NCBI RefSeq assembly: GCF_001953745.1
Contig: NZ_LWLN01000001.1
Span: 1,302,001-1,366,000, forward strand
Reading direction: 5' to 3'
Length of the DNA stretch: 64,000 nucleotides
Origin: Natrinema saccharevitans
Lineage (GTDB): Archaea > Halobacteriota > Halobacteria > Halobacteriales > Natrialbaceae
Every line of letters begins with the position of its first letter. Positions within the stretch are counted from its first letter, which is position 1. The notes under the pieces are model-generated. The model made no database searches, was not told where the DNA came from, and saw nothing but the letters and a program-made list of their open reading frames with translations. A program made the position numbers and the translations under genes. This document shows, piece after piece, positions 4,337 to 18,398 of the stretch.

Positions 4337-4540
4337 CCGGGCGATCCCGAGCGGCCCAGTGCCGTCGTCGTCGAACTGCCGCTGAATACCACCATACGGG
4401 CACTTGGCACAGGACTATCAAAACCGTGGCGCTACGGGCGAGACGGGCCCGCTGCTCGAGACCGCTCGGCCGCTGCCGGGCCGGATCGACCGTCGGTCGC
4501 GTCCCGGAGCGGCTAACTGCTCGGAGTCCCAACGCCGCCC

Positions 4541-5290
4541 ATGAACGTCGCGATCGTCACCGTCGGTGACGAGATCCTCGCGGGGTCGACGACCAACACC
4601 AACGCGTCGTGGCTGGCCGAGCGGATCACAGAACGGGGCAGCAGCGTCGAGCGCATCCTGACGATCCCCGACGACCGCGATCTGATCGCCGACTCCGTCG
4701 CTCGCTGGAGCGAGGCGTTCGACGCCGTGATCGTCACCGGCGGCATCGGCGGCACACCAGACGACGTGACCGTCGAGGCCGTCGCCGACGGCCTGAATCG
4801 GGCGTTCGTCGTCCACGGCGAGATCCGCGAGCGACTGGTCGAGAAGGCCGCCGCGTTCCGGGACGAGAACCCCGACCTGGTCGACGAGTACGACCTCCAG
4901 CTCGATATCGATGCCGCGGCTTCGATCCCCGAGGGCGCGACGCCGATCGTCGTCGACGAGGGGTGGGCCCCCGGCTGTATCGTCGAGAACGTCTACGTCT
5001 TCGCGGGCATCCCCGACGAGATGCAGGCCATGTTCGAGGCCGTTGCCGACGAGTTCCAGGGCGACGCCGTCGCCCGGACGATCTATACTCCGGCTCCCGA
5101 GGGGTCGCTCCACGACGCCCTCGAGGGCGTCGCCGAGCGGTTCGACGTCGCGGTCGGCAGCTACCCCCGCAGCGAGCATCGACCGGGTCGACTTCGCGTC
5201 TCGAGTACCGATCCCGAGACGGTCGACGCGGCCGTCGAGTGGCTGTGCGAGCGCGTCGAGACGACGGAGCCGCCGTCCGAACACGAGTGA
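4541..5290 (+). CDS. CinA-like molybdopterin-binding domain protein (COG1058)
   Basis: 249-residue protein with the MoaB/MogA-like fold of the CinA N-terminal domain. It opens with NVAIVTVGDEIL and carries the TGGIGGTPDDVT loop (about 65-76), both hallmarks of the family. The C-terminal nicotinamide-nucleotide amidase domain of bacterial CinA is absent, as is usual in archaea. The exact role is unresolved; the family is linked to nucleotide or cofactor damage control. Divergent from the CNNM gene, with a 200-bp shared promoter region. Confidence 0.88.
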   Translation: MNVAIVTVGDEILAGSTTNTNASWLAERITERGSSVERILTIPDDRDLIADSVARWSEAFDAVIVTGGIGGTPDDVTVEAVADGLNRAFVVHGEIRERLVEKAAAFRDENPDLVDEYDLQLDIDAAASIPEGATPIVVDEGWAPGCIVENVYVFAGIPDEMQAMFEAVADEFQGDAVARTIYTPAPEGSLHDALEGVAERFDVAVGSYPRSEHRPGRLRVSSTDPETVDAAVEWLCERVETTEPPSEHE

Positions 5291-5320
5291 CGGGCCGTCG
5301 GGAGCGCCCTCGACGCCCGG

Positions 5321-5965
5321 TCAGTTCGCCCGCCGGTCCTCGAGGATTCGGACGGCGACCGCGGTGAGGCCCGCGACGGTGAGGACGAACCGCTCGCCGG
5401 TCGCCGCGATGGGAAAGACCCGTTCGATCCCCGTTTCGGGCTCGTCTCGCGTCGGATCGACGCCGGTCCGGTAGTGGGTGTCCTCGGTCGTGCCCCGCGC
5501 CGTGGTCTCGGCGACGCCGCTTCCCTCGAGTTCGACGAACGTCTGGACGAGGCCGCGCCGATCCGTGACGAGCAGTTCGCCCGAGAGGTCGTAGAACCGG
5601 TCGTGGACCGGCCAGAGGAGGTTGACGCCGTTGAAGAAAGCGTCGAGCAGGACGTGTGCGAACAGCAACGCGGCCAGCGTCGCCCACGCGAGGCGGTGGC
5701 CGTACGCGCCCCACCGCCTCCGGACGAGCGACTCCTCGCGGTGTCGGGCGTCCCACAGCAGGGCAGCGGCGGGGAGAAGAACGATCCAGAGGTTGTGCAA
5801 CGCCGCGCGGTGGGTCCCCGGCACGACGATGCCGATCAGCGTATCGAGATCGAGCAGGGCGCTCGCGCCCATCACGAGCAGGATGGCCCGCGTGTCGAAC
5901 TCGTCGCCCAGCAGGGCGGTCCCGACCAGTCCCGCGAACGCGACGTGGACGACCGTCGATGGCAT
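5321..5965 (-). CDS. Membrane-bound DUF457/YdjM-type hydrolase-like protein
   Basis: 214-residue polytopic membrane protein. It starts MPSTVVHVAFAGLVG and contains an Asp-rich DLDTLIG motif after the second helix, then HN and H residues (AALHNLWIVLLP, FAHVLLDAFF) spaced as in the membrane metal-dependent hydrolases of the DUF457 family. About four membrane helices lie in the first 125 residues, followed by a soluble tail and a final hydrophobic segment. It is convergent with the CinA-like gene. The substrate is unknown; in bacteria relatives are tied to membrane stress. Confidence 0.8.
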   Translation of the reverse strand: MPSTVVHVAFAGLVGTALLGDEFDTRAILLVMGASALLDLDTLIGIVVPGTHRAALHNLWIVLLPAAALLWDARHREESLVRRRWGAYGHRLAWATLAALLFAHVLLDAFFNGVNLLWPVHDRFYDLSGELLVTDRRGLVQTFVELEGSGVAETTARGTTEDTHYRTGVDPTRDEPETGIERVFPIAATGERFVLTVAGLTAVAVRILEDRRAN

Positions 5966-14473: not shown

Positions 14474-16457
14474 CTACCGCCCGCGCTCCTCGACCCGCAG
14501 CGTGTACTCCCCGCTGCCGCTGTTGGCGTGGACCTGCAGCCCGAACGACTCGTCGCCCTCGAGGTCGAGGGCGATCGAGGGGGCCGTCCCCGAGCCCGCG
14601 GCCGCCTCGTCGTGGCTCCATCTCGTCGGTCGACTGCCGTCGGTGGTCACGTAGAGGTCGAAATCACCTCTCGAGGGGCCCTCGAGGGAAATCGTGATCG
14701 AGCAAGGATCGTCGGTGAGAGGTGAGTAGCCGTACCGTTTGCTCTCACCCCACCAGCCGCTGCCGTCCCCGAGCCCGCGGCCGCCTCGTCGTGGCTCCAT
14801 CTCGTCGGTCGACTGCCGTCGGTGGTCACGTAGAGGTCGAAATCACCTCTCGAGGGGCCCTCGAGGGAAATCGTGATCGAGCAAGGATCGTCGGTGAGAG
14901 GTGAGTAGCCGTACCGTTTGCTCTCACCCCACCAGCCGCTGCCGTCCCCGAGCCCGCGGCCGCCTCGTCGTGGCTCCATCTCGTCGGTCGACTGCCGTCG
15001 GTGGTCACGTAGAGGTCGAAATCACCTCTCGAGGGGCCCTCGAGGGAAATCGTGATCGAGCAAGGATCGTCGGTGAGAGGTGAGTAGCCGTACCGTTTGC
15101 TCTCACCCCACCAGCCGCTGCCGTCGAGGGAGCCGCTCGCGCTCGCGGTGACCGTTTCGTCGCCGCACTCGCCGGTGTCGGACTCGGTCTCGCTGCTATC
15201 GTCGCGATCGTCGCCGAATGGATCGGTTTCGACGGCGGCGGCCGCGTCGACCCGTCCGTACCCCTGCTGGTCGGCCGCGAGGCCGAGGTCGACGGCCGTC
15301 TCCCGGAGGTGGTCGCGGAGCTGCGACCGCGAGAGGTCGGGATGGGCCGACAGCGCGAGCCCGGCGACGCCGGCGACTACCGGGGCCGCCATCGACGTGC
15401 CGGACATCCGTCCGTAGCCGCCGCCGGTCGTACTCGAGACGATGCGGCTGCCCGGGGCGGCGAGTTCGATCTCGGGGCCGGTGTTGGAGAAGGAGGCGAT
15501 CGAATCGGCGTCGTCGACGGCGGCGACGGCGACGACGCTGTCCTCGGCAGCCGGCGAGTAGACGCGATCGCTGCCGGCGTTACCGGCGGCACCGACCAGC
15601 AGGACGCCCCGATCGGCCGCGTACTCGCAGGCCGCGGTCAGGGTCCGGTAGGAGCCGTCGACGCCCAGCGAGAGGTTGACGACGTCCGCGTCGGCGTCGG
15701 CCGCCCACTGGATCGCGTCGGCGATGTCCGACAGCGAGCCGACGCCGTCCGCGTCGAGGGCCCGGAGCGAGAGCAGGGAGCAGTCGCTGATCCCCGCGTG
15801 CCCGGTGCCGTCGTCGGTCCCGCCGGCAGCGATGCCGCCGACGTGCGTGCCGTGGTCCCCGCCGCTGCCGGGGTACGGATCGCCGTCGCCGTCGACGAAG
15901 TCCCTGCCGATCCGATCGTCCACGGTGGCCTCGAGCGCGGGATGGTCGTACTGGATCCCCTGATCGACGACCGCGATGACGACGTCCTCGCTCCCGCGGG
16001 TCGTCTCCCACGCGCGTTCACAGCCGATCAGTTCTGGGGCGTACTGGTAGCCGTAGTAGGGGTCGTTCGGCTCGAAAACCGTTTGGACCGTCACGTTGGG
16101 TTCGGCGTACTCGACGGCGGGCGAGTCGGTGACCGCGTCGATGAACGCCTCGCGGGCCCGCTCGGGCGCGTCCGATGGGAACGAAACGACTGCGTAGCGA
16201 ATCGTGTCGTTCGTATGCACAACGTCTGCGTTCCCGGGAACTGCGGCGCGTGCTTCATCGGCCACGTCCGAGGCCGAAGGCGAAATGCCGAGGATGATCT
16301 CGTCGTTTTTCGGTCCCGGGTCGCGGCCGGGCGTTGCACTCGTGAGACCGGACGCGCCGATCAATCCGCCGATAGCGATCGATCCGACACCAGTCAGGAT
16401 CGATCGGCGGTCGTGTGTGCGGTCGGCGTCGTCGTCCGGCGGATTGTTCTGTGTCAT
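14474..16457 (-). CDS. Tat-exported subtilisin-like serine protease, C-terminus out of frame
   Basis: Secreted subtilase related to halolysins. It has a twin-arginine signal (RR at 17-18, hydrophobic stretch to about 42), an inhibitor-like propeptide (about 55-125) and a catalytic domain with D165 ([12 protein letters not shown]), H202 (DHGTHVGG), oxyanion N293 and S355 (GTSMAAP). A C-terminal beta domain follows from about residue 430. Inside this last domain lie three identical 179-bp tandem copies (14583-15125). Because 179 is not a multiple of 3, the frame shifts and the current product ends at 14826 (543 aa) with an unrelated tail. Removing two copies restores a frame ending at 14474 (541 aa) whose tail matches the paralogue next door. 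Start at 16457. Confidence 0.85.
14583..15125. repeat. Perfect 179-bp tandem triplication
   Basis: Three identical 179-bp units start at 14583, 14762 and 14941, followed by six further matching bases (15120-15125). I compared the units by eye and found no difference. The unit length is 3n+2, so each added copy changes the reading frame of the protease gene on the minus strand; one or four copies keep the original frame, while two or three break it. Confidence 0.95.
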
Positions 16458-16718: not shown

Positions 16719-18398
16719 TTATTTGCCCAGTTCTTCGACGCTCACGGTGTAGGAACCGCTGCCGCTGTATCGACTGACGAGGATACCGAACTCCTCGTCG
16801 CCGCTGAGGTCCACGTCGATCGATTCGTTCGAGTCGTTACCGACCGACCGCTCATCGTAGTCCCGCTGCGTCGGCGTCCGTCCGTCGAGGGTCAGGTAGA
16901 GATCGAAGTCCGCGGTCTCCGGCCCCTCGAGGGAGACGGTGGCGCTGCAGGGATTCGCCGTTTTGAGGGTGTAGGTGTAGGTGTCGCTCGGATTGCCCCA
17001 CCAGTCGCCGCTGAGTTGGCCGTCCTTACTGGCCGTGTTCACTTCGTCGCCGCAGTCGCCGGGTTCGGGATCCGGATCCGGGTCCGGATCGGGGCTCGTA
17101 CCGGGCTCGGTGGTGACGGCGTTCCCGGCGTCGACACGACCGCTTCCCTGTTCGGTGGCGTCCAGCCCGATGTCGACGGCCGTCTCCTTGAGGTGCGTCC
17201 GCAGGTCCTCGTTCGAGAGGCTCGGCCAGGCAGACAGCGTCAGTCCGGCGACGCCGGCGACGACCGGCGACGCCATCGAGGTACCGCTGAAGGTATCGTA
17301 GTCGTCGAAGGGAATCGTCGAGAGGACGTCGCCACCGGGTGCGGCCAGTTCGATTTTCGGACCGACGTTCGAAAAGTCCGACAACGTTTCGCCCTCGTCG
17401 AGCGAGGAGACGGCCAGAACGGTGTCGTAGGCGGCCGGATACGAGACGGGGCTGCCGTAATCGTTGCCGGCGGCCCCGACGAGCAACGAGCCCTGCGACT
17501 GTGCGTACTCACAGGCCTGTCGCATCAGGTCCGTCTCACCGCCGCCGCCGAGGGACATATTGATGATGTCGGCACCCTGATCGGCCGACCACTGGACCGC
17601 GTCGGCGATGTCCGAGAGCGATCCGCCACCACCGGATCCGAGCGCGCGGGCCGAGAGGAGCGAACAGTTCGAAATACCGGCGTGACCGGTCCCGTTGTCG
17701 GTGCCGCCGGCGGCGATGCCGCCGACGTGCGTGCCGTGGTTCTCGCTCGCCTCCTCCGGATACGGATCGCCGTCGGCGTCGACGAAGTCCTCGCCGTTGT
17801 TCGAGACGCTGTCGTCCATGTTCTCCGCGAGATTCGGGTGATCGTACTGGATTCCCTGGTCGACGATCGAGATCGTCACGTCCGGATCGCCGAGGGTCTC
17901 TTCCCAGGCCTCCTCACAGTTGACTTGCTGTGGCGCGTACTGGCTTCCGAAGTTCGGATCGTTCGGAGTGTACAGCGGCGACGCACCACCTCGTGCGTCC
18001 GCCGTCCCGCCGTCGGTTCCCGACTCGAGCGGCTCGGCCTCGAGTGCGTGGTACGTGACGTTGTCTTCCGTGTACTGGACCTCGTTGGCGTCCATGAGGG
18101 TTCGCTGGACGGTTTCCTTGGCCTGTATGGAGGCTTCGTCGGGCAGCTCTACCGACGCGTAGCCGAGCGTTTCGTTCGTGTGTACGACGTTCGCGTCGGT
18201 CGGGAGTTTCGGTTGGACTGCCGCCTCGATATCCGAAACGTCGGCGTCGACACCGACGATCAGTTCGTCCTCTTTCGGTCCCGGCTCGCGTCCCGGCGTT
18301 GCGGACGTCACGCCGCCGAGACCGAGGATCGCACCGAACGCACCGGCTGCTTCGAGGATCGATCGTCGATTCACGTGTGAACGGTTATCATCAGCCAT
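16719..18398 (-). CDS. Tat-exported subtilisin-like serine protease (intact)
   Basis: 559-residue paralogue of the neighbouring protease. A twin-arginine motif (RR 11-12) and hydrophobic signal come first, then a propeptide (about 45-115) and a catalytic domain with D180, H221, N312 and S374 ([12 protein letters not shown]). A Pro-Asp linker ([12 protein letters not shown], about residue 435) connects to a C-terminal beta domain ending [14 protein letters not shown], which matches the out-of-frame tail of the first protease. Probably extracellular proteolysis in high salt. A TATA-like element (18425-18433) lies about 30 bp ahead of the ATG, suggesting a leaderless mRNA. Confidence 0.93.

Follow-up and report, generated by a model that had tools for sequence, protein, structure and literature searches.

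A gene for a secreted protease in Natrinema saccharevitans, an sptB-type halolysin, contains three identical copies of a 179-bp segment, and these put the end of the gene out of frame. We think it likely that this is a recent, lineage-specific, microhomology-mediated tandem duplication within sptB that has expanded to three copies, and that a partly redundant paralogue has thereby been lost or weakened. Mutation of this kind is ordinary; the closest precedent is the duplications in the capsule genes of the pneumococcus. The locus does document, in a haloarchaeal gene, an internal tandem duplication that is present in three copies, breaks the frame, and has clear microhomology at its breakpoints. 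It also shows that the annotated protease of 543 amino acids, though normal in length, is not a normal SptB.

The array and the reading frame

We analyzed a stretch of 64,000 nucleotides (the window), in which these are the features of the affected gene and its neighbor:

14826-16457, minus strand: the affected sptB-type halolysin gene (543 amino acids), with a twin-arginine motif, a propeptide, an S8 domain, and a disrupted C-terminal extension (CTE); from the open reading frame, Pfam PF00082 and PF22148, and orthologue alignment
16719-18398, minus strand: the intact neighboring halolysin, an sptA orthologue by residue fingerprint, unmutated; from the open reading frame, Pfam, and published features of SptA
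14583-14761, 14762-14940, and 14941-15119, minus strand: the tandem array of three identical 179-bp units; from Tandem Repeats Finder (TRF) and an exact period-179 check
15120-15125, minus strand: a 6-bp partial unit of the array, GCCGTC; from the exact period-179 check
14826-14828, minus strand: the premature TGA of the shifted frame, within the second translated copy; from the open reading frame and modelled translations
14474-14581, minus strand: the orphaned native 3' end (35 codons and a stop), out of frame with the gene; from modelled translations, and similar to orthologues

When run on the window, TRF reports a period of 179 bp, 3.0 copies, 100% matches, and zero indels at 14583-15125, with a score of 1086; this is the strongest array of the window by a wide margin. 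The exact period-179 run covers the same interval and is 3 x 179 + 6 bp long. So the three identical copies that had been noticed in the sequence are there, free of indels. The span of 14474-15125 that was first given for them is correct at 15125 only: the array starts at 14583, because the exact run ends there, and 14474, outside the array, is merely where the old reading frame ended.

The affected protein appears, from its sequence, to be a halolysin in most respects. It has a Peptidase_S8 domain (PF00082, E = 4.4e-57), a fervidolysin-type propeptide at residues 52-121 (PF22148), and, near the N-terminus, the twin-arginine motif DRRSILTG, a predicted export signal. In the orthologue alignment R17-R18 are invariant, and D165, H202, and S355 fall in invariant columns, so the Asp-His-Ser triad is intact. 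The assembled protein does not have the complete beta sandwich of a halolysin CTE, which the single-copy form would have.

To describe the effect of copy number, we modelled arrays of one to six copies, each translated from the same ATG. One copy gives a protein of 541 amino acids with the family tail ...EYTLRVEERGR, as in the relatives. From two copies up to six, the product is in every case a single protein of 543 amino acids that ends in ...PREVISTST, because the shifted frame runs into the TGA inside copy 2 and later copies are not read. Since 179 is not a multiple of three and the stop lies within the second copy, every array of at least two copies yields one altered protein, and the sole native state is exactly one copy. 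The original prediction was right about the change of frame, the altered C-terminus, and the nearly unchanged length of the 543-amino-acid product, but it also held that one or four copies would give the conserved tail and that two or three would give unrelated tails. With four copies the tail is still altered, which rules out a modulo-three switch, however tempting the idea that copy number modulo three controls the tail.

After residue 506, 35 native residues are lost and 37 new ones are gained. In the three-copy form the native tail peptide SFGLQVHANSGSGEYTLR is replaced by an alternative-frame tail that is basic (5 K/R to 1 D/E, versus 3 to 7 in the lost tail). The altered protein retains the signal, the propeptide, the catalytic domain, and both CTE cysteines.

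Origin and age of the array

The array has short direct repeats at its two breakpoints:

15120-15125, minus strand: upstream (gene 5') breakpoint microhomology, GACGGC in gene orientation; by alignment, kept in 6 of 7 relatives
14583-14588, minus strand: downstream breakpoint microhomology, GACGGC only in this lineage; by alignment, ACGAGC or ACGACG in 7 of 7 relatives

At the aligned downstream site, the sequence is ACGGCC here versus ACGAGC or ACGACG in all seven relatives. Sharing of at least 6 bp is rare in the surrounding sequence: for offsets of 100-299 bp, it holds for only 0.076% of breakpoint classes. The unit itself is single-copy in all 19 of the Natrinema orthologue loci that we examined. 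In a DNA search of 125 Natrialbaceae genomes, matches 179 bp apart were found only in this genome, and other multiple matches were about 2 kb or more apart. The locus thus has what is expected of a microhomology-mediated tandem duplication (MTD): homology at both breakpoints and exact head-to-tail copies of a segment that is single in the relatives. Because the 6-bp microhomology was completed only in this lineage, we infer a tandem duplication by microhomology or slippage, followed by triplication. A misaligned nascent strand or a broken end would have joined the two GACGGC sites, which are 173 bp apart, so that the intervening segment was duplicated; once two perfect 179-bp copies existed, slippage or unequal exchange between them would have produced the third. 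In vitro, slippage between short direct repeats is known for the replicative polymerases of Pyrococcus abyssi, another euryarchaeon (PMC4134008).

MTDs are known from other organisms, for example in the ssp1 gene of fission yeast, and a review describes the conversion of two copies to more (PMC13207564). The likeness is close: a short direct repeat at both breakpoints, duplication of the segment between, and a premature stop. The difference is that the host here is an archaeon and the case is known from one assembled allele.

The duplication appears to be recent, as had been proposed. Relative to its three closest relatives, 28-33% of the synonymous sites in the rest of the gene differ, with dN/dS of about 0.2, while the copies of the array differ at none; this implies a recent event in a gene that was formerly under purifying selection. 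Also, the orphaned native tail is still conserved and remains close to the tail of the relatives.

Two other sources of the array were considered and rejected. Slippage driven by a hairpin is not favored, as the unit folds no better than shuffled sequences do (z = 0.75 and -0.77); a short perfect hairpin, CTCGAGGG/CCCTCGAG, is present despite the unit's ordinary folding. Gene conversion from the neighboring paralogue is not favored either, as DNA identity there is only 66-68%. The array contains no promoter or terminator signals of the bacterial type (which are not informative for archaea), and its junction 30-mer has zero matches in viral contigs.

A more mundane explanation is that the true genome has one copy, or some other number, and that the extra copies were put in by the assembler. 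We consider this unlikely. There is no N at the junctions of the array, the locus lies on the 3.47-Mb main contig of a genome that is in 3 contigs and 99.99% complete, and the clean 6-bp microhomology at the breakpoints is what would be expected of a biological event. Furthermore, in 40 sampled stretches of the same genome (800 kb), there was no comparable frame-breaking array, and perfect tandem arrays of any kind numbered two, so the array in the window is far beyond chance. One of the two is CRISPR-like (L085:19300-20000; G000:C1 ~1619300-1620000), with the repeat GTTTCAGAAGGACCCTTGTGGGGTCGAAGC and one repeat-spacer unit exactly duplicated. The other (L100:6296-6449; G000:C1:886296-886449) is an in-frame 45-bp array; it gives a predicted protein an acidic C-terminal repeat, DNETEDNETDGNESM. 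On the other side, tandem repeats in a Halovivax homologue prove to be scaffolding artefacts.

The Halovivax case is as follows. A draft genome of Halovivax asiaticus (L050) has apparent frame-breaking tandem duplications in halolysin genes at 4534-4709 and 5240-5394, with similar repeats at 1998-2172 and 2700-2910. We rejected it as a second natural example: the later gene has N at the joins, which points to scaffolding rather than biology.

A probably weakened second halolysin

Which halolysin is affected? In the intact neighbor, the residues Tyr368, Leu394, Tyr398, and Tyr404 of SptA are present and correctly spaced from the second CTE cysteine, and its linker matches the place of the SptA autolysis products TEPGT and TSPDP. 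Tyr368, Leu394, and Tyr398 are absent from the affected gene, in the modelled one-copy form as well. In Natrinema sp. J7, SptA and SptB are on one GenBank entry (AY800382), which suggests that sptA and sptB are adjacent there. Given this shared entry and the missing fingerprint residues, the affected gene is most simply taken to be the sptB orthologue. The J7 pair (PMC3158780, PMC3402447, PMC6085418) resembles the pair in the window in having two related genes, a common layout of signal, propeptide, S8 domain, and CTE, and two CTE cysteines at a distance of 35 residues. It differs in that the sptB-type gene of the window has a frame-breaking triplication, while its sptA-type neighbor is intact. 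The neighboring paralogue with a conserved tail is as first described (gene 16719-18398). To call the affected product a surface protein was too strong: halolysins are secreted proteases, and this one is the sptB paralogue beside an intact sptA.

What does the altered tail do to the protein? We ran AlphaFold2 as a pair, with nearly the same alignment, on the window protein and on an intact relative. The CTE of the relative was predicted as eight strands (block pLDDT 57-86), while the CTE of the window protein was predicted to be mostly unstructured (block pLDDT 25-45). Because neither model is good as a whole (mean pLDDT 54 for the relative and 42 for the window protein), we use only the paired contrast of the CTEs, and we note that the changed tail aligns badly, which in itself lowers the confidence of a prediction. 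The last three strands of the intact relative's beta sandwich (510-514, 520-529, and 532-542) are the counterpart of the 35 lost residues. With those strands gone, the CTE of the altered protein probably does not fold.

Truncations of SptA give some idea of the consequences. When the last 76 residues of SptA are deleted, the enzyme is still secreted and keeps about a third of its activity; when 125 are deleted, almost none is left. The CTE of SptA aids the cleavage of protein substrates, most of all at high salt, and does not aid the cleavage of small peptides (PMC3158780). By analogy, the altered SptB would still be secreted and active, but it would be less stable and would bind protein substrates more poorly.

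In strain J7-2, the milk-clearing zone is lost when only sptA is deleted, and extracellular azocasein activity becomes negligible (PMC6085418), so SptB contributes little there. With J7-2 as the guide to redundancy, we read the allele as most probably a recent event by which a paralogue that is partly redundant was lost or weakened.

Possible switching and new function

Could the allele be reversible? It had been suggested that it might be, and this seems reasonable as a possibility: because perfect 179-bp repeats can contract, reversion to one copy by recombination is plausible, and contraction to one copy would restore the native protein. The locus would be a ready reporter for the contraction rate of long perfect repeats in polyploid archaea.

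The original prediction went further and raised an archaeal form of phase variation. Such a contingency switch would toggle between one copy (intact CTE) and at least two copies (broken CTE) and would diversify the population, as in the pneumococcal capsule. Phase variation of the capsule in Streptococcus pneumoniae is reported to arise through spontaneous tandem duplications within open reading frames, in the type 3 locus, cap8E, and tts (Waite et al. 2001, 2003). The likeness is that a tandem duplication within the reading frame spoils the protein and could in principle be undone if the extra copy were lost; the difference is that here the copies number three, the gene encodes a secreted protease of an archaeon, the change is confined to the end of the protein, and reversion is hypothetical. 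Reversible duplications within reading frames, in these capsule genes and in ssp1, and the capacity of long perfect repeats to contract do speak for a switch. Nevertheless, we think that a contingency switch is very doubtful. The data, from one assembled genome, contain only one allele. No relative has a multi-copy allele (19 loci in the genus are single-copy, and the rest of the 125 family genomes have no array), so the repeat is not conserved, as it ought to be at a phase-variable locus. The modelled translations show no modulo-three logic. Finally, the haloarchaea that have been studied are polyploid, and Haloferax volcanii equalizes its genome copies through gene conversion, which could slow or blur switching and makes clean cell-by-cell switching less simple. 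That frequent contraction and re-expansion would keep cells with intact and broken CTEs in one population strikes us as more doubtful still.

We give almost no credence to the idea that the new tail is a functional innovation, or that a free CTE, translated by re-initiation past the stop, is one. An ATG at 14798-14800, 25 nt past the premature stop, does open a reading frame of 108 amino acids when the copies number exactly three (to 14474, minus strand), which includes most of the CTE and ends in the native tail, but it lacks a signal sequence and the first CTE cysteine. The new tail is a mere alternative frame of a conserved stretch, is predicted to be unfolded, and is basic in a haloarchaeal exported protein. 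And the identical frame and stop were reached in another species through an unrelated frameshift: in the sptB orthologue of another Natrinema genome (L074, G013:C1 ~1366900), a small indel in the linker leads to them. This frameshift may be a separate loss of the CTE, in line with our preferred reading of the triplicated allele and with weakened constraint on that part of sptB, or it may be a sequencing error.

Around L074, our search found no adjacent sptA-type paralogue, unlike in most Natrinema genomes. The frameshifted sptB-type gene is that genome's only member of the pair.
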